DNA of 64,000 nt from Paroceanicella profunda (lineage in GTDB: Bacteria; Pseudomonadota; Alphaproteobacteria; Rhodobacterales; Rhodobacteraceae): the NCBI RefSeq assembly GCF_005887635.2, contig NZ_CP040823.1:50057-114056 (forward strand), given 5' to 3'. Positions 2,155 through 40,817 of the stretch are shown here, in pieces. Under the pieces are notes generated by a model. That model worked only from the letters and a program-made list of their open reading frames with translations. It did not search any database and was not told the DNA's origin. How positions within the stretch are numbered: the first letter of the stretch is position 1; each line of letters opens with the position of its first letter. The position numbers and the translations under genes are program-made.

Positions 2155-2165
2155 GGGTGGGCCTT

Positions 2166-3038: not shown

Positions 3039-3050
3039 TTTCGTCGCAAT

Positions 3051-3089
3051 GGACCGAACGGTCTACAGAGGCAATAGACCAATCGGTCC
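3051..3089. promoter_or_regulatory. Paired TetR-type operator dyads
   Basis: Two nearly identical imperfect palindromes, GGACCGAACGGTCT (3051-3064) and AGACCAATCGGTCC (3076-3089), have centres exactly 25 bases apart. They fill the gap between the divergent hydrolase and TetR genes. The half-site is GACC/GGTC. Two helical turns of spacing would put two repressor dimers on adjacent faces. The assignment to the neighbouring TetR protein is inferred. Confidence 0.65.
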
Positions 3090-3110
3090 AATGCCGCTAT
3101 CCCTTTTGCC

Positions 3111-3662
3111 ATGAGTGACCCAACGTCTCGCGATAGGCTGATCCGCGCCGCCTCGAACCTCTTTCGCCAGAAGGGGTATTCGGGTGTCGGCCTGTCGGAG
3201 ATTCTCAAAGAGGCGGGGCTGCCCAAAGGGTCGCTGTATTACCATTTCCCGAAAGGCAAACAGGAACTGGCCGAAGCCGCGACACGCTGGGCCGGTGCGT
3301 GGCTGGAACGGTTGCTCGATGCGACCTTCGCGCAGGCCGAAAGCTTTGACCAAGGTGCGCTCATGGTGTGTGAAACCATTTCCGCCGAGGTGGCGTCACA
3401 GACACATGTATCAGCCTGTCCGGTGCTCAGCATCCTGCAAGCCGCCCCTCTGGAACCACAGCTCCAGATCACCGCCCAAGACGTATATGGCAGTTGGACA
3501 AAATGTATCGAAAAACACGCCAAAAGGATGGGGTCCCCCCAGCCTGAAGAAGCAGCCTTTTCCTTGCACTGTAAATTGCAAGGCGCGTGGGTCATTGCCT
3601 TTGCCCAACAATCCAACGCGGCCTTTACCCAACTGGCGCGGGAACTCAGGGCAAAAATCTGA
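3111..3662 (+). CDS. TetR/AcrR-family transcriptional regulator
   Basis: 183 residues. The N-terminal helix-turn-helix is typical: LIRAASNLFRQKGYSGVGL, then SEILKEAGLPKGSLYYHF, at residues about 10-47. The all-alpha ligand domain follows, with a LHCKLQGAW segment resembling the C-terminal domain of LmrA/YxaF-type members. It is divergent from the alpha/beta hydrolase, and the shared gap carries two matched dyads, the usual arrangement for local autorepression. The ligand is unknown. Confidence 0.85.
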   Translation: MSDPTSRDRLIRAASNLFRQKGYSGVGLSEILKEAGLPKGSLYYHFPKGKQELAEAATRWAGAWLERLLDATFAQAESFDQGALMVCETISAEVASQTHVSACPVLSILQAAPLEPQLQITAQDVYGSWTKCIEKHAKRMGSPQPEEAAFSLHCKLQGAWVIAFAQQSNAAFTQLARELRAKI

Positions 3663-9500: not shown

Positions 9501-10785
9501 GATCTCCCTCCTCGACCAACCGTGCGGGCAGGCGCAAGTCATCACGACCCGTATTTGAGGGCATGGGCGGGGCAACCGAGGCCATGGCGATGCTCTCGAC
9601 GAGCGGGGTGGGATGTTCCTGCGCACCCGCGATCTCGATCCGTTGCGGACGGTAGCGCGCATAGATGTCCGAGATGGGCGTGTTGTCGCGCGGGATATCA
9701 AAGCTCGTGAAAGTTAGCGGGACAACGGCATTGGCCCGAGGCTTGGAGGCGGCGACAGGCGCAGCGGCGGTCTTGCGCGGAGCAGAGGATGGAACGGTCA
9801 GCCGCCCGTTAGGGATCGCCGCTGCCTGTTGTACGGGGCGCATCTCCGTCCGGGTTGCGGCCACGGCATCGACATATGCCAAGGCTTCATCCAGATCCCG
9901 CACAGGGACGCGGATCATTTCGCCGTCCTCCTGCACCTTGTCGAAGACCATCAGCTGGGTTTCGACAGAGGTGCCGAGCTTGCGGTAGACCTGCCCCGGC
10001 ATCGTCAACGCCAAGCGCGGCGTCAGGAGACCGCAGGCGCGTGACCAATGCGCGGCATCGCGTTCGGGCGCGAATCCCGGCGGCATGATCGCCACCAGGC
10101 GCCCACCTGGTGCCAGACGCTTTGCAGCCGCGACGAGATGTTTGGCGGCGATGTGCTTGTCTCGGGAGCGATCGACCGAGGAGGCGAAGGGCGGGTTCAT
10201 CACCACGACGTCGGGTAGAACCGGCGACTGCAGCAGATCGTCGATATGCTCGCCGTCATGGCCCGTCACCTCGCCGCCGAAAACCGCGCGCAGGAGGCGC
10301 TGGCGAAAGGGGTCGATCTCATTGAGCACAACCGTGGCACCGGTTTGGGCAGCGAAAGCAGCCAGGGCACCGGTGCCAGCCGAGGGCTCCAGAACGGTCT
10401 CGCCCTTGCGGATCGCCGCAGCCCGCAAGACCAGCGCCGCAAATGGCAGCGGCGTGGAAAACTGCTGCAGCCGGATCTGCTGCTCTGACCGGCGCGTTTC
10501 CGTGAGAAGCCGTGAGGCAAGGAGCTTTGCAGCGGCGATGTCACCTGCCGCGCCGTCCCCACCCAGCAGCACCTGGATGGCCGCAGCCTGCATCATGTCA
10601 TAGGCTATGCGCCAGTCCCAGGCGCCCCCGGCATCACTGCCATGAAACGTCTCGCGCATGATGCGCGCCAGCGCTGAGCTGCGCAGGGGTTGGTGGGCGA
10701 TCTCCGCGCAGATCTGTGCCAGTGCAGAGGCGAGGTTAGCGTCGAATTCAACAGGATTGGGGAGCGTTGAGCGGGGCTTGGACAT
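6511..10785 (-). CDS. Strawberry-notch-type helicase fused to an N6-DNA methylase domain
   Basis: 1424 residues. The N-terminal ~350 residues form a methyltransferase: motif I VLEPSAGTGALAAFA and the catalytic-type motif IV VVMNPPFASS. The central part has an SF2-like P-loop (GYFLGDGTGCGKGRECAGLI), VSKSATLIEDAIRDW and a FDEAHAM Walker B box. The C-terminal part carries GGTGRSYHAAQ and the arginine-rich GLGRTHRSAQ typical of the strawberry-notch C-terminal helicase domain. Such giant proteins are common on conjugative plasmids and integrative elements of alphaproteobacteria. They may protect or process incoming DNA, but the role is unproven. It heads a run with the small protein at 6496 and DUF736. 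Confidence 0.85.
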   Translation of the reverse strand: MSKPRSTLPNPVEFDANLASALAQICAEIAHQPLRSSALARIMRETFHGSDAGGAWDWRIAYDMMQAAAIQVLLGGDGAAGDIAAAKLLASRLLTETRRSEQQIRLQQFSTPLPFAALVLRAAAIRKGETVLEPSAGTGALAAFAAQTGATVVLNEIDPFRQRLLRAVFGGEVTGHDGEHIDDLLQSPVLPDVVVMNPPFASSVDRSRDKHIAAKHLVAAAKRLAPGGRLVAIMPPGFAPERDAAHWSRACGLLTPRLALTMPGQVYRKLGTSVETQLMVFDKVQEDGEMIRVPVRDLDEALAYVDAVAATRTEMRPVQQAAAIPNGRLTVPSSAPRKTAAAPVAASKPRANAVVPLTFTSFDIPRDNTPISDIYARYRPQRIEIAGAQEHPTPLVESIAMASVAPPMPSNTGRDDLRLPARLVEEGDLSEAQLETIIMAHDAHGRDLPGRFTIDDDQTKLTRADDDPDARAYRLGYFLGDGTGCGKGRECAGLILVNWLAGRRKAIWVSKSATLIEDAIRDWTDLGGSPADIQPVSKWKPDQSIPMGDGILFVTYATLRSAGKCGTTRLSQILAWMGEDFEGVLAFDEAHAMQNAAGSEQGRGVKPSQQGLAGLRLQLAAPRARIFYISATGATSVHNLAYAARLGLWGQGPEYPFPSREGFVSAMEAGGVAAMEVVARDLKTLGLYTARALSFDGVEYDVLEHALTPAQIEVYDAYAGAFRTIHHNLEAALTATGVNDASGETNASAARASAKSRFESTKQRFFNHLLMGMKAPTIIRAIKDDLAAGNACVIQVVSTGESLLKRRLEAMDPEDELVEGALTPRDYVLGYLEQAFPIHAQKLVEIDGNMVAEPLRDANGALVVSREALALRDAAMMELMTLAPIPSALDQILWAFGDEAVAEVTGRSIRPLKAEDGHLFIEKRAASSNSSETQAFMDGEKDILIFSDAGGTGRSYHAAQTAKNQKRRRHYLLEPGWRADAAIQGLGRTHRSAQVSAPFFRVCTSDVHGEKRFTSTIAKRLDQLGALTKGQRETGSQGMFREEDNLESPIARAALCGYFADLAAGRAEAMSYESFTDWTALRLIDKDGVLLEELPPIQRFLNRVLALPIHMQNALFAEFMRRIADQTERARAAGTLDLGVETLRGEKIEQVSTEDLWTCPKSGAVTRIIGLEVTDPVHVLGAEEAMSRNPDKLPMVNRASGRAALISARPMQMYDEDIVTLMRKAVRPNGSSYLEETRFESSAWEDIGRPEFAGLWDAEAASLPKTTTTKLYLLTGLLLPIWKDIPTTNERIYRVTPDGATAMIGRTLSEEGAAALRARFLVSNPQTPQEMLTAALGTTAPVDLGQGLTLTRRRVAGEMRLELGGADRGMIEGLKAMGCFTEIIAFQLRVFLPHGDGIDTLGILSRIVGTGPDATRDVTSVAAE

Positions 10786-28323: not shown

Positions 28324-28344
28324 GGGGGCGAAATGTCCGCCCCC
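28324..28344 (-). terminator. GC-rich hairpin after accessory ParB-like gene
   Basis: GGGGGCG (28324-28330) pairs perfectly with CGCCCCC (28338-28344) across a 7-base loop. On the minus strand it directly overlaps the stop of the ParB-like gene and is followed by AAATTACAAG, so the T-tract is poor. It probably works as a terminator or transcript-stabilising hairpin. Confidence 0.55.
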
Positions 28345-29804
28345 TACTGGATTTCGCTACTTGGCGGCCAGCATCGACGCGCTTCACGCAGCGCCAGCGT
28401 CCGGTGGGCCGTCAACTCCATGACCAGCCGCTCGGGCAGCGGCTTCAACGCTCCGACATCCTCATCCTCCGGCAAGTCAGCTCCGATCGGCTGGCCACCC
28501 GACATGATGACGGTTCCACCATGAGCGGCACTGCCATGGCCATCGGTGAAATCACGATCATCCCCCTGCACCGCCGCCGCAGGATCCGTACCATCCTGGA
28601 CCGCGGTCTCGTCAACGGGCTCATCCTCTGGACGCACATACCCGCGATAGACTGCCAGAGCGCCGTAACGGTCGAGCGTGACGAACGCCCCTGCCCGTCC
28701 GATCTCCTCCGCGTCGAAGATCAACGGCCGGGTCTCGATCTTTTCCATCTCCGTTTCCAACACGCCAAGCCGCGTGTCGATCTCGTCGGGGATTTCATCC
28801 TGTCCCGCGCATTCTTCCTCGAGCGCCCGATACTCGGCGAGCAGCTTGGCATGGGCCGCACCTTCGTCATCCGTCATAGGTGCCGGATCGCCGGACAAGG
28901 ACCGCAGGCCGTGGCTGTAGCCGTAGGGCAGGTCGAGTGCGACCTCGATCCACTTCCAGCCCTCAACGGCAATCGTCTCAGCCTCGGCCTGGAGTTTTTC
29001 CGTCACCAGCCGATCGAGCAAGGCAGGGTCCTCGAGCCAGCCACCGTCATCGCCCTGAAAAAGGTCATGCAACATCGTGCCGCCCGCCGCTTCGTAGGCC
29101 TCAGCACCCACAAAGACCGCGCGCCGGTCAGACGCCCGGACCGAGGTCTCTGTCAGCATGCGCCGGATCTGGAATGGCTCCTTGTTCCAGGATGAATGGA
29201 TCACATCCCAGACCTGAACCTGACGCGCGTGATCGGGGTTCACGGTGAAGGCCATCAACTGTTCCAGCGTCATGCCATCCTCGGCATAGACCTCGAGCAG
29301 GGCAGGGGCGACGGAGGCGAGTTTCAGGCGCTGCTTCACGACCTGCGGCGTCACGAAGAAGGCGGCAGCAATCTCAGCGTCGCTCTGGCCCTTGTACCGC
29401 AGCGCCACAAATGCGCGGAACTGGTCGAGCGGGTGCAGGGCGACGCGCTGCATGTTTTCCGCAAGGGAATCGTCCTCGGCCAGGATGTCGGACGCAGCAT
29501 CGCGGACGATGCAGGGAATGGGCGTCGTCTTTGCCAACCGCTTCTGCTTCACCAGCAGGGACAATGCTTGAAACCTGCGGCCTCCGGCCGGGATCTCGAA
29601 CTTGCCGGTCTCGGTCCCATCGGCAGCCAACACGGGCCGCACGCTCAGGCTTTGTAAGAGACCGCGGCGGGCGATGTCTTCGGCGAGTTCCTCGACGGAC
29701 ACGCCAGCCTTGATGCGCCGCACGTTGGACTGGCTCAGCACCAACTTGTCGAAAGGGATATCCCGCGAAGGGGACAGGGTGATTTTCTGGACAGCTTTCG
29801 TCAT
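28344..29804 (-). CDS. Accessory ParB/RepB-like protein, C-terminus probably truncated
   Basis: 486 residues from ATG 29804. The ParB domain is clear: DKLVLSQSNVRRIKAGVSVE, IPAGGRRFQALSLL, DDSLAENMQRVALHPLDQFR and a helix-turn-helix (SDAEIAAAFFVTPQVVKQRL). An acidic middle region and a long C-terminal part follow, as in the 660-residue ParB-like protein at 13024-15006. The last residues, REARRCWPPSSEIQ, do not continue like a folded domain and the stop lies inside a GC-rich hairpin, so the 3' end may be lost. It begins 114 bases after the repC stop. It is not RepB, which is present separately, so its role is accessory. Confidence 0.7.
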   Translation of the reverse strand: MTKAVQKITLSPSRDIPFDKLVLSQSNVRRIKAGVSVEELAEDIARRGLLQSLSVRPVLAADGTETGKFEIPAGGRRFQALSLLVKQKRLAKTTPIPCIVRDAASDILAEDDSLAENMQRVALHPLDQFRAFVALRYKGQSDAEIAAAFFVTPQVVKQRLKLASVAPALLEVYAEDGMTLEQLMAFTVNPDHARQVQVWDVIHSSWNKEPFQIRRMLTETSVRASDRRAVFVGAEAYEAAGGTMLHDLFQGDDGGWLEDPALLDRLVTEKLQAEAETIAVEGWKWIEVALDLPYGYSHGLRSLSGDPAPMTDDEGAAHAKLLAEYRALEEECAGQDEIPDEIDTRLGVLETEMEKIETRPLIFDAEEIGRAGAFVTLDRYGALAVYRGYVRPEDEPVDETAVQDGTDPAAAVQGDDRDFTDGHGSAAHGGTVIMSGGQPIGADLPEDEDVGALKPLPERLVMELTAHRTLALREARRCWPPSSEIQ

Positions 29805-29893
29805 CAGATCTTCTCCACGACGGGCGCCGGAAGCCACTCTCCCGATCTCACTTCCCGTCACCCTCAGACCAACACTCCTTTCCCTCTCACGGT

Positions 29894-29917
29894 GCTTCTT
29901 GACCGCGGTCAAGAAGC
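29894..29917. promoter_or_regulatory. parS-like centromere palindrome 1
   Basis: A perfect 24-bp palindrome with core CTTGACCGCGGTCAAG and outer GCTTC/GAAGC arms, directly after the repC stop. The same core occurs at 31224-31247 and, with one change, at 31269-31286. Repeated palindromes of this kind around repB/repC are RepB-binding centromeres in repABC plasmids. Binding is inferred. Confidence 0.75.
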
Positions 29918-31051
29918 TCATGTGGGAGCAAGTTGTGTGCGTAGGATCCTTTCGAAATAGGCGTCAGGATGTTTGATCGTGTCTGCTCTTGCTATCAGGT
30001 AGTCGAAGACGAGAAGCAGTTTTCCCGCGCCAGCTTTCTGGATGCCATGCCGCAGTTCGTCTTGGCTTATTCTAAGCAATCGACCGAGGTCGTATAGAAT
30101 GCGGGTGAGGGCTTCTCCTGTACGCGGCGGTTCTGGGAAAAATCCTGCAACGTGGGTGAAGTCTTCCCATGCCATGCTTGCTGGGTCTCGGTTCATCGTG
30201 GGCTTGGTTTGTGCGGTTTGTTCACCGCGATTGACCGTAGTTGGAACAATCTTTTTAATATCTTTTTTTATAGACTCTATGTGCCGGACATTTTGACCGT
30301 TTGTGGCGGGCAGATCGTTGGAATCCGGTGTATGCGGTCGGTGTTCGATAGTATGTAAATTATCTGCGGTACCAGCTTTTGTTGCGGCATGGTGTTCACC
30401 GTAGCTTGCGTCGGTATCGGCTCCGAGGGCTCTAAGTTCTGACATAACGCTCAGGACTGCATCAACGGTTAATGTTGCTCGACGCAGGACATTTCTGATC
30501 ATGTTGAGGGTAGAGAGCTTTGCTTCATCGAAGCGTGTCTGTTGGAGTAGCGAAGCACGTAGGGCCAACGCCTCAGCCTTCAGTGAGCGCAAGCGCTCGC
30601 GTTCTTCGGTGAGCTGCAAGGCTTGTGTCGCGAGCGAGCCGTACCTCTGGATCAAGGGCTTCAGGTCGATACCGAAGGCATCTCTGATAACGCCTCCATA
30701 CCGCAGCGGAAAGCGTTTGCCATTTGCTGAATTCTTGCGTTCGATCAGTTCAGCAGCTGAGAGGCGTCCCAGGCTGCGTCGAATTGTTCTCTCATCGAGT
30801 CCATTGGCGCGCTCTGACAGAGAAGCGTTCGATGGGAACACGACAGTGAGCGTAAGTCGCTGGCTGTCCTGAATCTCACGTTCTTTGCGGGGTAGGAAGC
30901 TAATGAGCGCGGTCAGAACGGCGAGGTCATTGGTTGTGAGACCGAGCTCCTTCCTCAGTACGCGAACTGGGCCCAGAAGCTCATAGGGGTTAGGGCAGGG
31001 CAGAGATATCCGTTCCGCCAGGGCGGTTGTTGTTTCATTTGCATGTCTCAT
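29918..31051 (-). CDS. repC: RepC replication initiator of a repABC plasmid
   Basis: 377 residues from ATG 31051. A longer frame to a TTG at 31123 is possible, but it would begin inside the repB-repC RNA structures. RepC features are present: the N-terminal CPNPYELLGPVRVLRKELGL, ALISFLPRKEREIQDS, NASLSERANGLDERTIRRSL (winged helix) and RRLRRHGIQ-like C-terminal part (RISQDELRHGIQKAGAGKLL). RepC binds the origin, usually within its own coding sequence, and initiates replication. It is third in the repABC order, separated from repB by 204 bases containing the antisense-RNA signature. Confidence 0.9.
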   Translation of the reverse strand: MRHANETTTALAERISLPCPNPYELLGPVRVLRKELGLTTNDLAVLTALISFLPRKEREIQDSQRLTLTVVFPSNASLSERANGLDERTIRRSLGRLSAAELIERKNSANGKRFPLRYGGVIRDAFGIDLKPLIQRYGSLATQALQLTEERERLRSLKAEALALRASLLQQTRFDEAKLSTLNMIRNVLRRATLTVDAVLSVMSELRALGADTDASYGEHHAATKAGTADNLHTIEHRPHTPDSNDLPATNGQNVRHIESIKKDIKKIVPTTVNRGEQTAQTKPTMNRDPASMAWEDFTHVAGFFPEPPRTGEALTRILYDLGRLLRISQDELRHGIQKAGAGKLLLVFDYLIARADTIKHPDAYFERILRTQLAPT

Positions 31052-31094
31052 GGTGTTTCGGAAGAAAAAGCTTCCCCGTTCACCGCGAGCGGTG

Positions 31095-31123
31095 TTGAAA
31101 TCGATTCGTTTTGGGGGTATCAA
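31095..31123 (+). promoter_or_regulatory. Sigma70-type promoter for the repABC antisense RNA
   Basis: TTGAAA (31095-31100), a 17-bp spacer and TATCAA (31118-31123) on the plus strand, pointing toward repB and against repC. It is correctly placed for the counter-transcribed RNA of repABC modules. It partly overlaps the 5' arm of the hairpin at 31120-31144. Confidence 0.6.
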
Positions 31124-31129
31124 TCAGGT

Positions 31130-31185
31130 GTCGAGACTGATTGAGGCCCTTCGGAAGCATCGCTTTCGGGGGGTCTTTCTTTTTC
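31130..31185 (+). ncRNA. Counter-transcribed inc RNA between repB and repC
   Basis: Predicted from structure: a plus-strand promoter at 31095-31123 and a rho-independent terminator (CCCTTCGGAAGC, ATC loop, GCTTTCGGGGGG, then TCTTTCTTTTTC; 31147-31185). An 8-bp inverted repeat TCAATCAG / CTGATTGA lies at 31120-31144. In repABC plasmids a ~50-60 nt RNA here pairs with the repC leader and limits RepC synthesis, setting copy number and incompatibility. The exact 5' end is uncertain because the -10 overlaps the first hairpin arm. Confidence 0.6.
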
Positions 31186-31223
31186 TAGCCGGTCCTCCTT
31201 TCGTTTTCTGCTCGTTGCTTTTG

Positions 31224-31247
31224 ATGTCTTGACCGCGGTCAAGACAT
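31224..31247. promoter_or_regulatory. parS-like centromere palindrome 2
   Basis: A perfect 24-bp palindrome with core CTTGACCGCGGTCAAG and outer ATGT/ACAT arms, located between repB and the antisense-RNA terminator. It shares its 18-bp centre with copy 1, consistent with RepB binding. Confidence 0.75.
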
Positions 31248-31255
31248 GGGGGTCG

Positions 31256-32179
31256 TCACTCTGGCCCGTCTTGACCGCGGGCAAGAAGCTCCGTGACCAG
31301 CTTCCGGACTGCCTCCTCAACACGAGGGACAAGATCAGCGTCCACATCGATGGTGATACGGGTGCCCTTTCGGCCGATCTTCACGCGCTCACTGGGGTGT
31401 GTCTTCTGCGTCGATGGTTTGGTGGCTGTCAGCAAGGTAACCGCCGCTTCGAGACGGTCGGGGCCCGGTATGTTGCGAGGAATTTCGCCGGCAACTTCTC
31501 GGGCTCTCGCGGCGTCTTTCTCGCACAGCCTGAAAAGCTTTTCCCAAACCCGTCGACCAACGCCGTGTGCAGGTCCGATAGCCTGGATCAGTTCCATCGG
31601 GATGCCCGTAGCGATACGGTTCATCCGCGAGACGAGCGATTCATCGATCTGAAGTGCCCGATACGCGATCGTTTGAGCGTTCTTGCGCGTTTCGTCGGTT
31701 TTCCCAAGTTCTCGAATGATCCCGGCGACAAACAGAGCCCTTTCGATGAACGATGGGTCTTGGCGCGCATTATTCTCTACGCCTTGGGCAATGAGAGCTT
31801 CCTCGTCGGTCATCTCCATGACCGTGGCGCGCACTTTCTGACCAAGTTGGCGACAAGCTAAAAGCCGACGGCGTCCATAGACGATCTCAAGCGCACCGTC
31901 CTGGGTTCTGCGAACCAACACTGGAACCTTTTGACCGTGCTCGCGGATCGACGAGACAAGCTCATCCAGACCATCGCTTGGATCGATGCGGTCCATGACC
32001 GCGGACATTCGTATTACGGTCGGGTCGATCAGCCGGGTGGCGTGTTTATCCTCTTCGAGCACGGATGCTTGTGCGCGAGCTACAGTCGGGCTCGTTCGCT
32101 TCACATCCAGATCCTCGTCCGAAGGCGGCGTTTTGCCCATCGCGTTCTTGAGTGAGTCCCCGAAGACCTTACGCGCCAT
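31256..32179 (-). CDS. repB: RepB, ParB-family partition protein of repABC
   Basis: 307 residues. The ParB domain has DGLDELVSSIREHGQKVPVL, IVYGRRRLLACRQLG and ENNARQDPSFIERALFVAGI (box II), followed by the helix-turn-helix region (IAYRALQIDESLVSRMNRIA). The C-terminal ITIDVDADLVPRVEEAVRKL is the dimer domain. RepB binds parS-like palindromes; three copies of CTTGACCGCGG(T/G)CAAG lie between 29.89 and 31.29 kb, one inside the 3' end of this gene. The start overlaps repA by 11 bases. Confidence 0.9.
   Translation of the reverse strand: MARKVFGDSLKNAMGKTPPSDEDLDVKRTSPTVARAQASVLEEDKHATRLIDPTVIRMSAVMDRIDPSDGLDELVSSIREHGQKVPVLVRRTQDGALEIVYGRRRLLACRQLGQKVRATVMEMTDEEALIAQGVENNARQDPSFIERALFVAGIIRELGKTDETRKNAQTIAYRALQIDESLVSRMNRIATGIPMELIQAIGPAHGVGRRVWEKLFRLCEKDAARAREVAGEIPRNIPGPDRLEAAVTLLTATKPSTQKTHPSERVKIGRKGTRITIDVDADLVPRVEEAVRKLVTELLARGQDGPE
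31269..31286. promoter_or_regulatory. parS-like centromere palindrome 3 (one mismatch)
   Basis: TCTTGACCGCGGGCAAGA matches the centre of copies 1 and 2 except for one base in the right arm. It lies inside the 3' end of repB, 22 bases from copy 2. A close pair of sites would favour RepB spreading or bridging. Confidence 0.6.
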
Positions 32180-33380
32180 GGCTACGCCCCCATGCTTTCA
32201 GGATTTCGCGTTCGACTTCGTCGGTCACGCGCGAGACGGACTCGATCGCGCGCTCGTAAGTTCTGCGATTCACGTCGCGAGGTTCGACCTCGAAGATGCT
32301 CTGCTGGGTGTTCGCAGCATCACCCACGGCTGTTGATTTCAGAAACTCGGCAGACAGCACGGCATCCCCGAGGACTGTCCGAAGCAGAGATGAAATCTGC
32401 ACCTGCGGACCATCCGTATTTTCGTAGCGGGTGATCAGAACTCGCACGAAGTTCAGTCCATGTTCCGGGGCGTGTGCCTCGACGACGCCCATCAGGTTGC
32501 TCGCCATGCCCAGAAAGCTCGCCAGCGACATGACATCGAGCATCGACGCGTTGAGCGGGATCAGGACCCCGGTCGATGCAAAGAGGGCAGAGATCACCGA
32601 GAAGTTCAGCTGCGGTGGGGTGTCAAATATCACCACATCATATCGGTTGAGGACAGGCTCAAGCGCTTCCCGGATGCGGCTATGGAACGTGGTGGCGCCG
32701 TGTCTGAAGCTCAGGGCGACCTCGAACTCGTACTCCATGATGTCCATGGATGCCGGGATCAGATCCACGGTCGGGAAGTTCGTTTTGCGAATGATCTCTG
32801 CTGCGGGCAATGGATCGTCGGATCGGATAAGATCGTATGAAGTCGGCATATCCGGATCGAGCTCAGGAGTAACCCCGAATAGGTTTGTCAGACTTGCCTG
32901 GCTGTCGAGGTCAATCAGCAAGACCCGGTAGCCGCGCAGGCCCAGTAGCTGTCCTACATGGGCAACAGATGACGTCTTTGCCGAACCACCCTTCAGGTTG
33001 AAGATCGTCAAGACCTGACAAGCCTCTCCCGGTCTTCTGTGCGGGTGTTCTTCTGGCTTGATCCTTCCAGTCTCGAGAAGTACGCGTTGTGCTTCGACCA
33101 TCTCCTCTGCAGAGAAGCTACGGCGGTTGCCGCCCTCCAAGACACCTTCGGGAAAGCCTTCGAGGTTTGACACATGATGGCGGAAGGTGTTCTGATTAAT
33201 GCGAAGAAGTTCAGCCGCTTCCCGCATGGCGAAGCGGCGGAGGCCCTTCTGAGCGTCCGGTGGGAAGGTTTCCTGCGCATGTTCACGCAACCGACTACCA
33301 AGCCGCTTGGACATGACTTCAAATCTCTGGGAGGCGCGTATCCCGTTCATCACTGCCCTCAAGTCTTTATTGTTTTGCAA
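32169..33380 (-). CDS. repA: RepA, ParA-family ATPase of repABC
   Basis: 403 residues. An N-terminal ~110-residue DNA-binding part is typical of RepA (FAMREAAELLRINQNTFRHH, a helix-turn-helix). The deviant Walker A is FNLKGGSAKTSS near residues 127-138; Walker B is VVIFDTPPQLNFS, with VLIDLDSQASLTNLFG (motif A'). RepA segregates plasmids with RepB and represses the operon. It overlaps repB by 11 bases. The upstream 33381-33600 region should hold the repABC promoter and operator. Confidence 0.9.
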   Translation of the reverse strand: MQNNKDLRAVMNGIRASQRFEVMSKRLGSRLREHAQETFPPDAQKGLRRFAMREAAELLRINQNTFRHHVSNLEGFPEGVLEGGNRRSFSAEEMVEAQRVLLETGRIKPEEHPHRRPGEACQVLTIFNLKGGSAKTSSVAHVGQLLGLRGYRVLLIDLDSQASLTNLFGVTPELDPDMPTSYDLIRSDDPLPAAEIIRKTNFPTVDLIPASMDIMEYEFEVALSFRHGATTFHSRIREALEPVLNRYDVVIFDTPPQLNFSVISALFASTGVLIPLNASMLDVMSLASFLGMASNLMGVVEAHAPEHGLNFVRVLITRYENTDGPQVQISSLLRTVLGDAVLSAEFLKSTAVGDAANTQQSIFEVEPRDVNRRTYERAIESVSRVTDEVEREILKAWGRSHGA

Positions 33381-33394
33381 AGCTTAACAGATAT

Positions 33395-33403
33395 TGTGGA
33401 TAA
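33395..33403. promoter_or_regulatory. DnaA box upstream of repA
   Basis: TGTGGATAA, the complement of the consensus DnaA box TTATCCACA, lies 15 bases upstream of the repA start. A single box does not define an origin, as repABC origins usually lie inside repC. It could link repABC expression to DnaA. Confidence 0.4.
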
Positions 33404-33607
33404 ATCCAGACCAAACCGTTGAGCGGCCTGGGCGCGTTGAAGCCACCGATTTCTGTCGACGGTAAACTGTTAAAAATCAGCGCCTTGGGCGACTGCGCTC
33501 TCACTCTACTTCAACACCTCGTTGCCAGCCACGAAGTGACCACAAGATGTATTGTGAGTGCGTACAGAAATCAGTCGGCAGAATCGGATGGACGATTCTC
33601 TGGGATC

Positions 33608-34492
33608 TCAGTCGAGCAACGACAGCCTCTCCGCCCGCTCCAGCAGCATCTTCACCGACGAAGGCTGCCAGCTTGTCCGCCCGCGGGGCGTGCGCTCGCG
33701 CATCGCTTCCAGCCGTTCACAGATCGCCTGAAGCGTGATGTCGGGATCTGTGCCCTTGATGCCTGCGACAATGGCGGGCAGGCGGTCGTCCGTTTCGCGG
33801 CGCCCGGCGCGGGCCAGCACCTCGACAGGCAGGAAGCCGTCGCGGACATAGGCCTTCACAGCGCGTTGCAGGCGGCTTTGGGTCCAGCTACGCGCTTCGG
33901 GCAAGGGGCCGTTGATGATGCGCAACACGTCCTCCCAAGCCAAGTCGGGGCGCAACCGGCGCACATGGGGCACCCAGTCTTGTGCCGTCTCGTTCAGGCG
34001 CTCCATGTAGCCGTCCTGTCGCGCCAGCCGCACTTTGCGAAGAGCGGCAGGGTCTTTGGCCCGCAGCCCAGGGTTCCCGCCAACGCGGCCCTTTGTGCGT
34101 GCGCTGGCAAGGCCGGCCTTGGTGCGTTCCCGGATCAGGGCGCGTTCGAACTCGGCCGCAGCCCCCAGCACTTGCAACGTGAACTTGCCCTGCGGCGATG
34201 CCGTGTCGATTGGGTCTTGAATGGAACGAAAGAAAGCACCCTTGGCTTCAAGCCGTTCGATCACCTCGAGGAGATGCGAAAGCGACCGCGCCAGCCGGTC
34301 GATCCGCACGACCACCAGCGTGTCGCCCTTGGCGACGCGTTCCAGCACGCGCGCCAACACCGGCCGCGCACGATTGCCGCCAGAGGCCTGCTCCTCATGG
34401 ATCTCGGCGCAGCCTGCAGATTTCAGGGCCTGCGACTGGGGCAGGGGGGTCTGATCCTCGGTCGAGACCCGGGCATAACCTATCAGGGGCAT
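33608..34492 (-). CDS. Serine recombinase (resolvase/invertase family), full-length
   Basis: About 294 residues from ATG 34492. The catalytic N-terminus is intact: IGYARVSTEDQTPL (nucleophile Ser in the family position), VRIDRLARSLSHLLEVIERL, and FTLQVLGAAAEFERALIRER with the conserved arginines. A long C-terminal extension (~150 residues) replaces the usual ~45-residue helix-turn-helix. Likely roles are multimer resolution for the plasmid or a residual transposon resolvase. It is divergent from an HTH protein across a 200-base gap with two inverted repeats. Confidence 0.8.
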   Translation of the reverse strand: MPLIGYARVSTEDQTPLPQSQALKSAGCAEIHEEQASGGNRARPVLARVLERVAKGDTLVVVRIDRLARSLSHLLEVIERLEAKGAFFRSIQDPIDTASPQGKFTLQVLGAAAEFERALIRERTKAGLASARTKGRVGGNPGLRAKDPAALRKVRLARQDGYMERLNETAQDWVPHVRRLRPDLAWEDVLRIINGPLPEARSWTQSRLQRAVKAYVRDGFLPVEVLARAGRRETDDRLPAIVAGIKGTDPDITLQAICERLEAMRERTPRGRTSWQPSSVKMLLERAERLSLLD

Positions 34493-34652
34493 CAAAACAG
34501 TCTTTTGCAGTTTCATATAACGCGACTAAACGACCGTTTGTAAACAGAGGCAAGGGCGCTCTTTGTGGTGCTGCAAATCAAAAACCCCTTGGTTTTCATA
34601 TGCTGAGCGCGATCAGAGAGATATCGCAGACCACCGCGCGCGCGTGCTATAT

Positions 34653-34714
34653 AGGGTGTGCAGGCGCACCCTAACAAAACACTTTAGTAAAATGCAAAAG
34701 CGCCATATTTTGCA
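34653..34714. promoter_or_regulatory. Two inverted repeats between recombinase and HTH gene
   Basis: AGGGTGTGC (34653-34661) faces GCGCACCCT (34664-34672), and TGCAAAA (34693-34699) faces TTTTGCA (34708-34714), the latter ending four bases before the HTH start codon. They are candidate recombinase or HTH-protein sites. The gap also holds AT-rich promoter-like sequence. No experimental family match is claimed. Confidence 0.45.
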
Positions 34715-34717
34715 CAT

Positions 34718-35797
34718 ATGAAGCCTCAAGTACCTACGCAGTATAGTAAATTGGACGATCCTCTAGTTGATGCGGAGGGGATTGAAGAGACGTCCGAGGA
34801 CGACCTGTGGTTCCTGCCCGGTCCAATAGAAGTGGAGCCGGATTATCTGCCGCCCAGACCGAGGGCAGAGCTGCCTGAAACCGCAGTCCTCGACGATTGG
34901 CGGAAGGCAGAGGCAGGTAATGCCGCCCGTCTTGCCCGTGTGGCTAGCCGGATTGGCGCGCTGGATGACCGTCTGCACCGTGGCCCGGAAGGCTGGCGGC
35001 TCAGGCTCGCCCTGATCGAGGCGGCAGACCTCAGCTGGTTTGTGGGTGACCGAATTGGCCCGGATCGGCTGGCGCTTTGGATATCCATGCGCTTGTCCGG
35101 GGTGCAGGACGACACCGCAGCGCTCGCGCGTGTCGGATGGGCGGTGCGCCGTCTGACAGGCGGTCCCGGTCCAGAGGTGGACTTATCCGCTTTCCTCGAT
35201 CGCCGTGACCCTGAAAACATGGCCAATGAAGCCGAGCCCTTTGCGGATCGCGCGGTCGGTTGGCTTGACCTGATGGCGCAAGCCGCCCACCTGCATTCGA
35301 TTACACGCGCCTGCATGGGGTTTCACCTCTGGAACCTTGCGGGCCTCGGGCAACAGGACGACCGGATGGAAGCGGCGGTTACCGCCGCACGCATTGCCGC
35401 GAGCGAAGGCCCGAATTTGAATGGGGGGGCCATCTTTGCGCCTCTGGCTATGCGCGGGGCAGGGGGGCTGCGCGCCAGTGGCCCACCTGCCGAGCGCTTG
35501 CAGCGTTGGCTCGAGGGAATGGAAACAGCATGCCTGACCGCGATGCGGCACCTCGACGATATCCAGGCATGGTCAGCGCGGGCGGACAACATGATGGCAC
35601 CGCTCTCTGGCAAGACACCACCTGCATTGCGCGCGGTGCTGACCGAATGGCCCGTCGTCTCCGCTCCAATGGCCGAGACCCTGACCGGTGCCAGCCGCGC
35701 CGCCGTCCAGCGCAACCTTGCTTGGATGGAAGCGCAAGGTCTAATCCGCGAGGTGACCGAACAGGTGCGTTTCCGCATGTGGCGGGCGATGCCATGA
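34718..35797 (+). CDS. Plasmid HTH protein, RHE_PE00001/DUF1612-like
   Basis: 359 residues. The N-terminal ~45 residues are acidic (EGIEETSEDDLWFLPGP). The middle part, EAGNAARLARVASRIGALDD and WRLRLALIEAADLSWFVGDR, resembles the RHE_PE00001/DUF1612 family of rhizobial and roseobacter plasmids. The C-terminus is a winged helix (LTEWPVVSAPMAETLTGASR, then AVQRNLAWMEAQGLIREVT). It is thus probably a DNA-binding regulator. It is commonly near recombinases and repABC genes. The target is unknown; dyads lie just upstream. Confidence 0.6.
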   Translation: MKPQVPTQYSKLDDPLVDAEGIEETSEDDLWFLPGPIEVEPDYLPPRPRAELPETAVLDDWRKAEAGNAARLARVASRIGALDDRLHRGPEGWRLRLALIEAADLSWFVGDRIGPDRLALWISMRLSGVQDDTAALARVGWAVRRLTGGPGPEVDLSAFLDRRDPENMANEAEPFADRAVGWLDLMAQAAHLHSITRACMGFHLWNLAGLGQQDDRMEAAVTAARIAASEGPNLNGGAIFAPLAMRGAGGLRASGPPAERLQRWLEGMETACLTAMRHLDDIQAWSARADNMMAPLSGKTPPALRAVLTEWPVVSAPMAETLTGASRAAVQRNLAWMEAQGLIREVTEQVRFRMWRAMP

Positions 35798-36124: not shown

Positions 36125-37028
36125 TCAGATCTTGATCAATGCCGCCGTCGCGTACATGAAGGCGATGCCGCCCAGAAACCCGACCAGTACGGCTGGTGAC
36201 ATCAGCGCCGCCTGCCTGTCGGCGTTTTGACGTACAAGGTAGGCGCTGACCTCGACCATGACTTGCAGGATCGCACCCGCTCCGACGGCGAGTGCCAGTG
36301 CCGACCATTGCGGCGCATAGGCAAGGCTGCCCGCCCACATTCCGAGGATGGCCGGGCCACCGGCGAGCAGGGTCAGAGCGGCAAACGTCCAAAGCGTTGG
36401 CCGGGCACGAAGCATCGGGGCGGCGATGCCTATGCCCTCGGTGACATTGTGCAAGGCAAAGCCTAGGACGAGGAAAGTTCCAAGCCCCGCCGACCCGGCG
36501 GCGAATGCGCCGCCGATTGCCAGCCCTTCGCCGAAGTTGTGAAGCCCGATCCCGAGGGCAATGTAGAACGCAAGCGCGATGCCTTCCGGATTGCCGCGCC
36601 AGCGCCCGATAGCCATCAATAGAAGAAAGCTTGTAAGCGCCGCCAGCCAGACCATGGCAGAACCTTGGAATATCGCCGCCGCATCGCCGGACAACTCCAC
36701 CGCTTCCGCAGTCATGTCGATCAGCAGGAAGGCCAGCAACCCAACCGTCAGTGCGAGCAGAAAGTTCATCCCGCTTCGCCCGACGCCCTTCATCGCCGGA
36801 AAGAACATGAGACCAAGCGCAACCGGCAATAGGCCGACGATCGCTCCGATCACTGCCTGCAGCCGGAGTTGCCCCCAGGTGGCGCTTGGCGTCGAGACGG
36901 CGACCCCGATCTCATGCCCGAAGGTCGCGCCCGTGTTGGTCAGCAGGTTGACGCGATGGGCCTCGCCGAGAACCCACGGATAGGGAATTCGCAACCAGAC
37001 CGCTTCGCCGCGGGCAATCGGCCCCGCG
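36125..37028 (-). pseudogene. ZIP-family metal transporter, 3' part (split by transposon)
   Basis: Reading on the minus strand, this is the distal ~300 residues of a ZIP transporter. The metal-site helices are HNFGEGLAIGGAFAAG and HNVTEGIGIAAPM, with about eight spans. The 5' part lies at 40535-40817. Removing the 3506-bp transposon and one copy of the CCGCG duplication restores a continuous frame (TFTQEPA joined to GPIARGEAVWLRIPYPW). The intact protein would be about 390 residues, with a periplasmic beta-rich domain before the ZIP core, which is unusual. An internal start could still give a core-only protein. Confidence 0.85.
37024..37028. repeat. Target-site duplication, left copy
   Basis: CCGCG directly abuts the left TGT end of the TniABQ element; an identical CCGCG follows the right end at 40535-40539. 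Five-base duplications are usual for Tn7/Tn5053-type transposition. Confidence 0.85.
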
Positions 37029-37055
37029 TGTCGCGTAGCCCTTAATTGTGAGATG
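37029..37055 (+). repeat. Left terminal inverted repeat of the TniABQ element
   Basis: Starts TGTCGCGTAGCCCTTAATT, ends GTGAGATG. It matches the right repeat at 24 of 27 positions. Further copies of the inner GCCCTTAA motif follow at about 37087 and 37130, with a weaker CTTTAATT at about 37110. Confidence 0.85.
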
Positions 37056-37168
37056 AGAAATCCAACGAAATCAACGGCCACCCTTTGCCCTTAAATATAA
37101 GATTTTGTCTTTAATTCCGATATTTTTGCCCTTAAACATGAGACAGGGTTCACAGGTTTTTGCGGCAA

Positions 37169-38809
37169 ATGTCGATGAACAATGATGACGAAGAGTCAGT
37201 TGCCGTTGGAGCTGAAGAGGCGCGTAGGGCCGTCGTGCTGCGTCCGGTTGTTCAGGCATATCTCAATGGGACTGGCAGTCTGGAAAGTGACATCAATGAC
37301 GCCGTTTGGGAGCTTGGTGCCAGCAGGGCGACGGTCTGGCGTTGGGTAAAGCGGCTGGCGGAAGAGGGTGGGCGCACCAGTGCTTTGGCTCCGCGGAAAC
37401 GGGGCCGCCCGGCTGGTACGACCTTGATTTCCAGCAAGGTCGAAGCGGTGATTGAAGAACATCTTCGCCGTTATTTCTTGAGCCGGGAGCGTTCGAGCCT
37501 TTCGCGCGTCGTGACAGAAATCCGCAGCGCGTGCTGGCAACAGGGCTTGCAGCCGCCGACACGACGGACAGTTCAGCGTCGTCTGGATGCGATGGATGCC
37601 CGCGAAGTTGCGAAGGCACGAGAGGGCTCAAAGGCTGCCCGCCAGAAATTTGCGCCGGTCACAGGTGAGAACAAGGCCAGTCAGCCTCTGGAGATCGTGC
37701 AAATTGATCATACGCCCGCGGACATCATCCTTGTCGACAGTTTTGAGCGCCAACCAATTGGGCGGCCTTGGGTCACGCTGGCGATCGACATCGCAACGCG
37801 GATGGTAACTGGATACTACACCTCTCTGGAGGCCCCTTCGCGTCTGTCAGTGGCGCTTTGCCTGACACAGGCGGTTGCCCCCAAGGCGGAACTTCTTGCG
37901 GAATTGGCGTGCAATATTCCTTGGCCCGCACAGGGCAAGCCGCACAGCATCCACGTCGACAATGGCCGCGATTTCCGGTCGCGGGCCTTTCGGTCGGCAT
38001 GTGCGGAGTGGGGGATCGATCTGGTCTATCGACCGCCGGGAAGTCCTCACTTCGGAGGTCACGTCGAACGATTGATCGGGACGATGATGGGGGCCGTTCA
38101 TCTGTTACCGGGAACAACGCAATCCTCGATCGCGGCCAAGGGCGACTATGACGCCGAAGGCATGGCCACGATGACCTTGAGCGAATTCGATCGCTGGTTT
38201 GCTTTGGAAATCTGCCGTTACAACAACAGAGTTCATTCAAGTCTTGGCTGCACACCTATCGCCAAATGGGAGGAGCTCTCAGAGAAAATGATGGGTGACA
38301 TCCCCTTTGAGATGGAAGCTTTTAGGGTGAGCTTCCTGCCAAGCGAGCTGCGCAAGGTCAGGCGTGACGGCATCCATCTGTTCGAGATACGGTACTGGTC
38401 GGATGCCCTTGCAGGCCACATTGGGCGCGGGGATGGAAAGGTAGTCGTTCGCTACGATCCTCGCGATATCTCAATGATCTGGGTCGAATTGGACGATGGC
38501 CGATATGTTGAGGCGCGTTACAGAAACTTGGAAATTCCGCCCGTGCCGCTCTGGGAATATCGCGAAGCCATGAGGAAGGCCCGTGCCCTTGGCAAGTCCG
38601 GGTCCAATGAGCTGGTCCTGGCTGAGCTGATCCGACAGCAACGCCAAATCGAGTCTGAAAGCCGGGGCCTAACGAAGGCCGAACGCCGATCCCGTGAAAG
38701 AAAAGGGACATTGGAGGACACCAACTCGGCTGTCTCGAAAACCGAAGGGCTGCGTGCGATCGACACGGGTGATACATCGCGCCCATTGTTCAAGGTAGAG
38801 AGATGGTGA
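37169..38809 (+). CDS. tniA: TniA/TnsB-type DDE transposase
   Basis: 546 residues from ATG 37169. An N-terminal helix-turn-helix and Mu-like DNA-binding region (WELGASRATVWRWVKRLAEE) is followed by the DDE core: VQIDHTPADIILVDS (first Asp), HVDNGRDFRSRAF (second Asp) and PHFGGHVERLIGTMMG (Glu). A Mu-type beta-barrel C-terminus follows (VRRDGIHLFEIRYWSDALAG). The protein cuts and joins transposon ends. Its length and order with tniB/tniQ fit the Tn5053/Tn7-like family. The stop is one base before the tniB TTG. Confidence 0.92.
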   Translation: MSMNNDDEESVAVGAEEARRAVVLRPVVQAYLNGTGSLESDINDAVWELGASRATVWRWVKRLAEEGGRTSALAPRKRGRPAGTTLISSKVEAVIEEHLRRYFLSRERSSLSRVVTEIRSACWQQGLQPPTRRTVQRRLDAMDAREVAKAREGSKAARQKFAPVTGENKASQPLEIVQIDHTPADIILVDSFERQPIGRPWVTLAIDIATRMVTGYYTSLEAPSRLSVALCLTQAVAPKAELLAELACNIPWPAQGKPHSIHVDNGRDFRSRAFRSACAEWGIDLVYRPPGSPHFGGHVERLIGTMMGAVHLLPGTTQSSIAAKGDYDAEGMATMTLSEFDRWFALEICRYNNRVHSSLGCTPIAKWEELSEKMMGDIPFEMEAFRVSFLPSELRKVRRDGIHLFEIRYWSDALAGHIGRGDGKVVVRYDPRDISMIWVELDDGRYVEARYRNLEIPPVPLWEYREAMRKARALGKSGSNELVLAELIRQQRQIESESRGLTKAERRSRERKGTLEDTNSAVSKTEGLRAIDTGDTSRPLFKVERW

Positions 38810-38810
38810 A

Positions 38811-39692
38811 TTGACGGCAGGGACAACTGAGGAAGACGGTCGGATCGCCCTCATTCAATCGGACATCTGGATCGGCTTTCCGCGGGCCGAACAAGTGCTG
38901 GACCGTTTGCAGGGTATGATCGAGGCGCCAAGGCAAACCCGTATGCCTGGCCTTCTTGTGCATGGCGCGTCCGGGATCGGAAAGACGATGATCGCCCGAA
39001 ACCTGTCGCGCAAGTACGCACCAGAATACGATCCGCCGTCAGGCATCACGCGCACACCGCTTCTGCTGTTGCAAGCGCCGCCCGCACCCGACGAACGGCG
39101 GTTCTATCTGCACATCCTGGCCGCCGTCGGCGCCCCGGCGACGGCACTGAGCGCCCGCGCTCAAAATGTGGCTTCCCTCGAAGTTCGTGTCATCGCACTC
39201 TTGCGCGACCTTGGCCTGCGGATGATCATGATCGACGAGGTCCACAATCTCTTGGCTGGGACCCACCGCGAACAGCGCCGCTTTCTCAATGTTCTGCGGT
39301 ATCTCAGCAATGAACTCGAAGTGTCGCTGGTATGCCTCGGGGTCAGCGAGGCCGTCGATGCCATCCGTGGTGATATCCAGCTTGCCAGGCGGCTGGACGA
39401 ACATCACCTGCCAAACTGGCGCGACGATGCCGAGTTCTCGGACATGATTCAGACACTCATCGCGGCAATGCCCCTCGAGAAGAAATCCAATCTGAAGGTC
39501 AAGTCGCTCAAGCAGATACTTGCACTGACCGGTGGGGTGACCTCGCGCATCTTCGCCCTGATCAAGGATCTTTCCATCGATGCCATTGTCACTGGTAATG
39601 AATGCATCACCGATGACGCAATCGCAAAATGGACGCCGGTTTGGTCGCGTCACGCGTCCGCTGGGCGGCGGCTCGAGAAGTCCCGGGTGTGA
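38811..39692 (+). CDS. tniB: TniB/TnsC-type AAA+ ATPase
   Basis: 293 residues from TTG 38811, right after the tniA stop. Walker A is VHGASGIGKTMIARN near residues 47-61; Walker B is LRMIMIDEVHNLLAG near 137-151. The remaining AAA+ elements are recognisable (QLARRLDEHHLPNW). In Tn7-like systems this ATPase links target choice to the transposase. Its 3' end overlaps the tniQ GTG by four bases. Confidence 0.92.
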   Translation: MTAGTTEEDGRIALIQSDIWIGFPRAEQVLDRLQGMIEAPRQTRMPGLLVHGASGIGKTMIARNLSRKYAPEYDPPSGITRTPLLLLQAPPAPDERRFYLHILAAVGAPATALSARAQNVASLEVRVIALLRDLGLRMIMIDEVHNLLAGTHREQRRFLNVLRYLSNELEVSLVCLGVSEAVDAIRGDIQLARRLDEHHLPNWRDDAEFSDMIQTLIAAMPLEKKSNLKVKSLKQILALTGGVTSRIFALIKDLSIDAIVTGNECITDDAIAKWTPVWSRHASAGRRLEKSRV

Positions 39693-40480
39693 AGCCGCGC
39701 CCGCTGCCAAAGATTGTCGCGCCGCTGCCAGACGAGTTGTTGTCAGGTTGGTTGTCTCGGCTGGCTGCGGCCAACTACTGTAATGACGCGGAACTGCTGG
39801 CCCATATCAAGATCGATACCGCGCATGGCACCGCCTTGGACCTCAACATCGACGCGGTGGCGGCAGAGAAGATTGCCAGCGCTGCACGTGTCGCCCCAGA
39901 CGTCGTGCGATCTTTGACCTTTCCAGCAATGACGCCACGAGAAGCCTCGCTGACGGCCCAGATGCCATTCCAGCATTGCCCGCAATGCTCCCGAGAGGGC
40001 CTTTCGCTCAAGCATTGGAGGCGGGCCTGGGCATTCGACTGCCAGGTTTGCGGGGCGAGACTTGTGCAGACCCTCGGCAAAGCAGGCGACGAACAAGTAT
40101 CCGAGAAACTGACATACCGAGCGCGCCGTGGGGCAGGGATGCTTGAGTGCGCCGCGCGATCACGCGGCCCCAGACCACTTCGGCGCGCAATGCGTGCAGT
40201 CGCCTTTGCCATGTCACTCAAAACCTTCCGCGGGGATCCGTCGTTCGCTCTCCAGAACCCCAGATCGGAAGTGAGGCTGTTCTGTCTCGCCGCAATCGCC
40301 GCCGCTCGGTCTTATCCCTTGGCTAAGGCAGCCATCGCCAGCCACAGCATCGACGACTATGCAAGGGTTGCTCTATTGCGCGCCTTCGAGAAGGAGCCCC
40401 GTCTGCTTGTTGCGGTTGATCATATCGCGCAAAGGCGCGCGAGAAGCACAGGCCCGATGACAGCCGAACCTCGCAATTAA
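39689..40480 (+). CDS. tniQ: TniQ target-selection protein
   Basis: 263 residues from GTG 39689, which overlaps the tniB stop (GTGA). The TniQ head is APLPDELLSGWLSRLAAANY; a zinc-ribbon follows (HCPQCSREGLSLKHWRRAWA, then CQVCGARLV) with paired cysteines. A C-terminal ~100-residue region has a typical helix-turn-helix-like part (SHSIDDYARVALLRAFEK). TniQ directs the integration complex; in CRISPR-associated elements it binds Cascade, but no such genes are here. The target specificity is unknown. Confidence 0.9.
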   Translation: MKPRPLPKIVAPLPDELLSGWLSRLAAANYCNDAELLAHIKIDTAHGTALDLNIDAVAAEKIASAARVAPDVVRSLTFPAMTPREASLTAQMPFQHCPQCSREGLSLKHWRRAWAFDCQVCGARLVQTLGKAGDEQVSEKLTYRARRGAGMLECAARSRGPRPLRRAMRAVAFAMSLKTFRGDPSFALQNPRSEVRLFCLAAIAAARSYPLAKAAIASHSIDDYARVALLRAFEKEPRLLVAVDHIAQRRARSTGPMTAEPRN

Positions 40481-40507
40481 GGGCAAAATTTGTCGTCAAA
40501 CGCGCCG

Positions 40508-40534
40508 CGTCTCAGAATTAAGGGCAACGCGACA
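40508..40534 (-). repeat. Right terminal inverted repeat of the TniABQ element
   Basis: On the minus strand it begins TGTCGCGTTGCCCTTAATT and ends CTGAGACG, with three mismatches to the left repeat. A second GCCCTTAATT copy follows inward, at about 40482. Confidence 0.85.
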
Positions 40535-40539
40535 CCGCG
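40535..40539. repeat. Target-site duplication, right copy
   Basis: CCGCG follows the last A of the right end and equals the five bases before the left end. With one copy removed, the flanking ZIP gene reads through in frame. Confidence 0.85.
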
Positions 40540-40817
40540 GGCTCCTGCGTGAAGGTCCAGTAGGCGTCGTCCACTGCGACCTGCGCGACCACCATTGCTT
40601 CCGATCCGCCGGCGCGCACACTGAGCGAAATCCCCGACCCATCGAGGATCGTCCGTTCGACGGTCAACGCCTCGACCGGGGGCGCGCCATTGTTGAAGCC
40701 GCGCAGCGGATCGAGCGAGGCAATCCACACGAAAGCCCCCAGCATGACGGCCAGCGGCACGAGGACGAGAAGCAGGCGGGTCATTGGCGGGCGGCTGCGT
40801 TGGATATGATCGGTCAT
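40535..40817 (-). pseudogene. ZIP-family metal transporter, 5' part (split by transposon)
   Basis: N-terminal ~94 residues from ATG 40817, whose ATGA overlaps the stop of the multicopper oxidase gene. It begins MTDHIQRSRPPMTRLLLVLV, a membrane anchor, then a hydrophilic beta-rich stretch (GFNNGAPPVEALTVERTILD, SVRAGGSEAMVVAQVAVDDA). It is cut after TFTQEPA by the transposon; the rest is at 36125-37028. Translational coupling to the oxidase indicates one operon controlled by the MntR-type box. Confidence 0.8.

Follow-up and report, generated by a model that had tools for sequence, protein, structure and literature searches.

A cargo-free TniA-TniB-TniQ transposon of marine bacterial plasmids whose cointegrates may persist

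How does a transposon that encodes a transposase, an ATPase and TniQ, and nothing else, complete its transposition, and what becomes of the products? This question is raised by a 3,506-bp element at positions 37029-40534 of a 64,000-nucleotide stretch of Paroceanicella profunda DNA (contig NZ_CP040823.1, positions 50,057 to 114,056, referred to as the window), in which tniA, tniB and tniQ are the only genes and cargo is absent. Comparison with its relatives indicates that the element is most probably a copy-in transposon of the Tn5053/Tn402 branch, without resolvase, TnsA or cargo, whose cointegrates, inversions and deletions would persist in an IS26-like manner.

The initial annotation had described 27-bp ends with 24 matching positions, a CCGCG duplication and only tniA, tniB and tniQ between them, all of which was confirmed. 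End comparison places the left terminal inverted repeat at 37029-37055 (+ strand; TGTCGCGTAGCCCTTAATTGTGAGATG) and the right one at 40508-40534 (- strand; inverted TGTCGCGTTGCCCTTAATTCTGAGACG), both beginning with TGTCGCGT; the best of 200,000 random 27-mer pairs from the window reached 18/27 matches, against 24/27 for the element. Arrays of TniA-type GCCCTTAA repeats follow, four at the left (37036-37147, + strand; element positions 8, 57, 77 and 98, with starts at 37036, 37085, 37105, a variant, and 37126) and two at the right (40465-40527, - strand; positions 8 and 49, read leftwards from 40527 and 40486). This spacing is kept exactly or almost exactly in L081 and L182, the two relatives compared (about 74-76% DNA identity), and TniA presumably binds to these arrayed repeats. 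All three genes lie on the + strand: tniA (37169-38809, start ATG at 37169 or 37175) encodes a DDE transposase of 546 amino acids (aa) with the Pfam domains rve and Mu-transpos_C, tniB (38811-39692) a 293-aa AAA+ ATPase (Pfam TniB, 1.1e-58; VchTnsC, 4e-11), and tniQ (39689-40480) a short TniQ protein of 263 aa (Pfam TniQ, 1.6e-10), its GTG start overlapping the tniB stop. Among solved structures, the best matches of TniA are TnsB of Tn6677, PseCAST and ShCAST. In TniQ, C99, C102, C120 and C123 (residue numbers of P0003) are invariant in the alignments, and the predicted structure of this protein is poor (mean pLDDT 56.7).

Beyond the genes, the element contains 140 bp upstream of tniA and 54 bp downstream of tniQ. 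Open reading frames and Pfam gave no further gene, and hence no TnsA, between the ends, and this content of three genes and 140 + 54 bp likewise includes no res-tniR; the nearest serine recombinase found by Pfam lies outside, at 33608-34516. A Cas effector would have no room beyond tniABQ (RNA families were not searched for), and no IS6 model is listed for TniA by NCBIfam at E 0.001.

The window copy is a simple insertion with its own target duplication, CCGCG, at 37024-37028 and 40535-40539. It splits the gene of a ZIP-family metal transporter, the 3′ part of which lies at 36125-37028 (- strand; Pfam Zip 2.1e-8, just under the cut-off) and the 5′ part at 40540-40817 (- strand; extent taken from the 1,182-bp intact gene, which is present in locus L160). 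With the element removed and a single CCGCG left, the two parts form one reading frame again. An empty ZIP allele, called for as a check on the insertion, was found in Pseudosulfitobacter pseudonitzschiae p7 (CP070881.2), where 1,800 of 1,800 bases aligned with 2 mismatches, 0 gaps and one CCGCG. A search of the host genome gave a single match to the element, which lies on a contig of 114 kb.

Related copies are widespread. In a plasmid collection, 188 records match the element, 57 of them over at least 80% of its length at a single location; among the matches listed, positions 1-3506 are spanned in 37 of 40 rows, many of them sister strains of one species. Matches occur in 59 of the 394 genomes of the family (own genome included), ten with a near full-length copy of at least 3,357 bp. 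A class-wide TniA search gave a match in 6 of 240 genomes, again with the own genome included, and together with wider flanks it yielded distant kin. The three genes are all open in 119 of the 138 full copies fetched, a redundant set of 62 distinct sequences, and copies from Roseibium (Hyphomicrobiales) and Croceicoccus (Sphingomonadales) are 99.9% identical to one Phaeobacter copy. The proposal of a minimal TniA-TniB-TniQ element, free of cargo and resolvase, is supported, and the size of the element is constant. None of the records or contigs holding the 73 copies counted below exceeds 290.6 kb, and the element looks plasmid-borne, a weak impression, because of assemblies in draft state and because a plasmid collection was chosen for the search.

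The window copy proved to be an exception in its flanks. Matching 5-bp flanks were found in only 3 of 73 distinct insertions with both sides readable, with 0.54 expected by shuffling; this count omits insertions whose flanks meet a contig end or an N in the first 30 bases. That most copies lack a target duplication could not be seen from the window alone. Besides the window, the insertions with their own repeat are one in Limimaricola variabilis (TCAGC), whose joined site aligns with uninterrupted relatives at 79% over 255 bp in the best row, and one Salipiger abyssi copy (CGTGC), whose joined site is 99% identical to uninterrupted relatives over 300 bp. In the remaining 70 the element ends are intact and the pentamers differ between the two sides. 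The same holds for genomes with a single match, in which 14 of 14 full copies have no matching repeat. Both ends nevertheless carry one target signature, drawn from 61 distinct left and 68 distinct right flanks: SCNGS, that is C/G, C (72%), any base, G (61%) and C/G, with mostly A/T at the eighth base out. Since it is the same at both ends, each end appears to be a genuine strand-transfer junction. The target that the element accepts is a loose palindromic pentamer, S-C-N-G-S. The claim that its target choice could not be explained was therefore not upheld, as the insertions share this pentamer and the counted copies lie on plasmid-sized replicons or contigs.

In some genomes the missing half of a repeat was located beside a second copy. 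A copy's left pentamer is identical to the right pentamer of a different copy in 3 of 44 ordered within-genome pairs vs 33 of 5,212 between genomes (genome labels were assigned by hand), where label shuffles gave a mean of 0.30 within-genome matches (P 0.003). The three pairs are direct repeats, with identities of 99.97%, 100% and 100%, and the 5-bp repeat stands outside the pair. They bracket 13,721 bp in Sulfitobacter pontiacus pDSM110277_d, about 27.9 kb in S. abyssi pPABY3 and 11,622 bp in Roseovarius aestuarii. When the outer flanks are joined, the S. pontiacus target, which lies downstream of repC, is found uninterrupted elsewhere at 96% over 300 bp, with 12 of 164 matching records covering at least 80% (96% in Alisedimentitalea, 95% in Dinoroseobacter). 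The S. abyssi target, a conjugative coupling-protein (virD4-type) gene of another plasmid, aligns at 97% over 300 bp, with at least 80% covered in 152 of 169 records. For R. aestuarii, where the target is a small hypothetical gene, the best row gives 75% over query positions 1-210 and 0 of 20 records cover at least 80%; identities are 75-78% in the two best Ruegeria rows and 81-83% in the best 3 of 39 matching genomes among the 394 of the family. The segment in S. abyssi carries repA, RP-C and parB, including the sole RP-C match of pPABY3; its preferred interpretation is that a small replicon fused with a conjugative backbone. That of S. pontiacus is a sugar ABC transporter region, and that of R. 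aestuarii holds transporter, carbon-nitrogen hydrolase and AMP-binding genes.

In each direct pair one of the two pentamer crossings matches and the other does not, as expected if replicative transposition started from a donor without a duplication; under recombination of two insertions that each had a duplication, both crossings should match. A fourth case is provided by a 239-bp derivative with two identical inverted copies on one 114.8-kb contig, where GCCGT matches crosswise and the other crossing is unmatched. Once joined, its target matches an intact ISRhba5-type transposase gene of Phaeobacter plasmids at 100% over 300 bp, and the arrangement is that expected of an inversion produced by copy-in transposition.

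Intact ends, constant size, split repeats on identical or near-identical pairs and uninterrupted joined targets are all read directly from sequence, and they are consistent with the following scheme, in which we infer the biochemistry, the part played by RecA and the occurrence of adjacent deletions. TniA, presumably assisted by TniB and TniQ, would nick both 3′ ends and join them to a 5-bp staggered SCNGS site. Replication would copy the element, giving a cointegrate if the target lies on another replicon and an inversion or adjacent deletion if it lies on the same one. This product would be left unresolved because no function for 5′-end cleavage or for resolution is encoded by the element, and the new 5-bp repeat would end up split between two copies. 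Host homologous recombination would occasionally convert such a product into a simple insertion with matching repeats, as in the window.

The literature offers precedents for such an outcome. Systems without functional TnsA gave mainly cointegrates in experiments (PMC8188705), and the type V-K CRISPR-associated transposon (CAST) ShCAST gave more than 85% cointegrate reads in Escherichia coli in one study (PMC8188705). According to a survey, elements without TnsA usually have a resolvase, and those without one may use a resolvase in trans or host RecA (PMC8649781). For the Tn5053 family, replicative transposition with resolution by TniR is described, as are long-lived cointegrates where no resolvase helps (PMC7765201). 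How type V-K cointegrates are handled in native hosts is given as unknown (PMC11406308).

Several points weigh against persistent copy-in products as the general explanation. The 73 insertions are not independent, as they share ancestry, and the repeat count stands without a completed negative control from another transposon family in the same pipeline; an IS21 element tried as such a control was dropped, its query probably being cut by the element itself. The split repeat was seen in only 3 of 44 ordered pairs, most partners not being seen, and the target of the inverted pair is an insertion-sequence gene, itself able to move. Taken by themselves, the direct pairs do not tell a fresh cointegrate apart from a pair that later moved as one unit. 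Moreover, five left junctions occur with 2-6 right partners and five right junctions with 2 left partners, a pattern that fits recombination as well as adjacent deletion. Phaeobacter P11 (C-element-B), compared with P75 (A-element-B and C-element-D), fits simple recombination; homologous recombination between copies thus occurs, and part of the missing repeats has that cause. ShCAST in E. coli has also been cited at only 20% cointegrates (PMC9527255), so that the lack of TnsA and resolvase need not mean mostly cointegrates. As for individual recurring junctions, a left flank ending GAAGGCCTGG has five different right flanks (L173, L174, L178, L059, L061) and one ending TGAACATGCC has six (L063, L070, L176, L179, L180, L195), in both cases across genera, as if one end were fixed and the other continually rearranging.

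One alternative is that the bracketed segments are pseudo-compound transposons moved as units, and that no replicons were fused. The direct orientation of the copies and the position of the repeat beyond them would look the same, and the gene contents in R. aestuarii and S. pontiacus agree with it, whereas the S. abyssi segment, with repA, RP-C and parB, is a replicon. We regard this account as plausible but less likely than not. Both use copy-in chemistry, so they differ in history and not in mechanism, and the weight given to it does not detract from the copy-in explanation.

A different mechanism is invoked if transposition is cut-and-paste or fully resolved, with each insertion duplicated at first and flanks shuffled later by homologous recombination. 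Copies are near-identical and often several per genome, P11 and P75 differ as recombination would make them, and junctions are common to different partners. Yet the element has no TnsA gene, and 3 of 73 is very low for a cut-and-paste or resolved route; the 14 single-match copies also have no repeats, and a single crossing matches in each direct pair and in the inverted one, where recombination of two duplicated insertions predicts two. This route is accordingly unlikely. That the element is a decayed, now immobile Tn5053/Tn402-type transposon that lost resolvase and cargo, as its tniA-tniB-tniQ order, its TniA clade next to Tn402 and the missing tniR might suggest, is highly improbable, given the constant 3,506 bp and intact ends in many hosts, the three genes open in most of the (redundant) fetched copies, and a recent spread that contradicts immobility, seen in the 99.9% identical copies of Phaeobacter, Roseibium and Croceicoccus and in the empty site of a near relative.

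The copy-in element thus favoured has recognizable kin. A TniA phylogeny with Tn402 and CAST proteins, a check of the kind that had been recommended, placed it in a separate clade (100/99) with relatives of 75-79% identity and a sister subfamily of about 48%; Tn402 and L212-L215 join this clade at 93/90, and TnsB of type I-F and V-K CASTs falls elsewhere, in a tree of 18 rows where the Tn402 TniA is only 323 aa and the CAST branches are long. R751 from 38000 onward held about the first 323 codons of Tn402 tniA, and R751 1-30000 was without tniA; identity to this TniA is 41% over residues 1-317. Members of the sister subfamily (L224-L239) are 3.65-3.66 kb long with tniA, tniB and tniQ, have ends TGTCACTGTACCC or TGTCATGGTCACG, and occur as within-genome copies up to 100% identical. 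Of 16 such loci fetched, 14 were read and 11 had both ends, and none of these 11 elements has its own 5-bp repeat.

Comparison with characterized systems shows which parts are familiar. Tn5053/Tn402 transposons (TniA-TniB-TniQ-res-TniR), the 'res site hunters', resemble the element in gene order, short inverted ends and, for the window copy, the 5-bp duplication, whereas res-tniR, the mer operon and the integron are missing from it. Tn5053-family insertions are described with flanking 5-bp repeats (PMC7765201), unlike most copies of the element, and their targets are plasmid res sites, while the window copy is inside a ZIP gene. The cyanobacterial Tn5469 is similar in having no cargo, a single TniQ and apparently untargeted insertion (PMC11406308), a likeness drawn from its description, in a different host group. 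ShCAST shares TnsB-TnsC-TniQ, the absence of TnsA and resolvase, and cointegrate formation (PMC8188705, PMC11406308); the element, in contrast, has no room for Cas12k, no cargo, and a TniA outside the ShCAST branch. In its inferred mode the element resembles IS26/IS6, for which cointegrates, pseudo-compound transposons, direct copies and a new duplication outside the pair are described (PMC7986276). That arrangement, two direct copies with a new repeat outside, is found here in three pairs at the sequence level only. The element does not belong to that family: IS26/IS6 elements are about 0.8 kb with another transposase (PMC7986276), whereas the element consists of three genes with AAA+ and TniQ helpers.

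The minimal TniABQ form itself is not new, and the idea that the element is unprecedented did not hold, since Tn5469 is already cargo-free with a single TniQ (PMC11406308). What appears to be new is behaviour: with known parts and chemistry, genome comparison suggests an unusual lifestyle. Among the matches listed in a literature search aimed at such elements, which left most subscription journals outside, no title or abstract opening describes this one. A broader conjecture, which we consider plausible but a little short of probable, is that the whole clade of 3.5-3.7-kb TniABQ elements, including the sister subfamily with about 48% TniA identity, gave up excision, resolution and cargo to become plasmid-borne insertion sequences with persistent cointegrates, inversions and deletions as normal end products. 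Such elements may be a main natural agent of plasmid fusion and replicon shuffling in marine Rhodobacterales. They would carry replication modules and metabolic cassettes from one conjugative backbone to another and mobilise derivatives of 0.24-0.35 kb in trans. The family is a natural data set on the fate of cointegrates: its occurrence in many plasmids, some of them finished, suggests that a number of cointegrates persist and reshape replicons. For mechanistic work it also provides a simple TniABQ system of three genes, and it is a concrete candidate agent of plasmid fusion in bacteria rich in repABC plasmids.

Targeting of res sites was rejected as a general rule on the basis of 33 loci with wide flanks, 25 of which have no serine recombinase match in those flanks. 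Such a match lies within 1.4 kb at 5 of the 33, three of these within 57 bp (two on one scaffold), and a partial preference for res sites may exist. At L011, L049 and L052 the element is 1, 56 and 57 bp from the match, a proximity reminiscent of the preference for res sites among Tn5053 relatives. The window insertion is 2.5 kb from the recombinase gene and not in a res site.

Small derivatives resembling miniature inverted-repeat transposable elements retain both ends and have no room for a tni gene: L148, L150, L151 and L152 (347 bp), L153 (320 bp), and L154 and L155 (239 bp). Flanks do not match in any of these seven, and one inverted pair has the crosswise pentamer. Longer versions that share the ends and add a resolvase or cargo, which the initial annotation had named as a possible counterexample, were not found in clean form. 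The nearest are two end pairs, 11.3 kb (G252) and 21.4 kb (G208) apart, which bracket other genes but retain just 38-40 bp of either element end, abutting ISKra4-type end motifs. Inside, neither pair matches tniA or tniQ, and their flanks are unmatched; G208 has a weak tniB match (26%) at its edge. G208 contains two serine recombinase genes (Pfam Resolvase), and G252 an RbbA-type ABC protein and a polyhydroxyalkanoate (PHA) synthase, with an ISKra4 transposase gene (NCBIfam) adjoining one end and a gene of enoyl-CoA hydratase/phosphate acetyltransferase type at the other. With short end remnants, no tniA/tniQ and unmatched flanks, they were rejected as an intact long form and are read as remnants; they may represent a non-autonomous cargo form.

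ISKra4-type end motifs also occur 17-50 bp inside the element termini at L094, L098 (at the same place in L147), L144, L145, L181 and L223, at both ends in L144 and L181; NCBIfam identifies the transposase in L144 alone, and the annotation gives one in L181. An ISKra4-type insertion sequence may target the inverted repeats of the element and silence or remodel it. In NZ_CP084963.1, an older right-end fragment (7629-7776, 86%) abuts a newer copy and is followed by gcgggcggag, the sequence directly after the element in the S. pontiacus OXR-199 plasmid.

Elsewhere in the window, a 1,424-aa protein is encoded at 6511-10785 (- strand), with weak methyltransferase-like matches below the model cut-offs. 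A plasmid module at 28344-35797 comprises parB, RP-C repC, repB, repA, a serine recombinase and a 359-aa protein without a Pfam match, and the order parB, repC, repB, repA and recombinase is common to this module and the fused-in S. abyssi segment.

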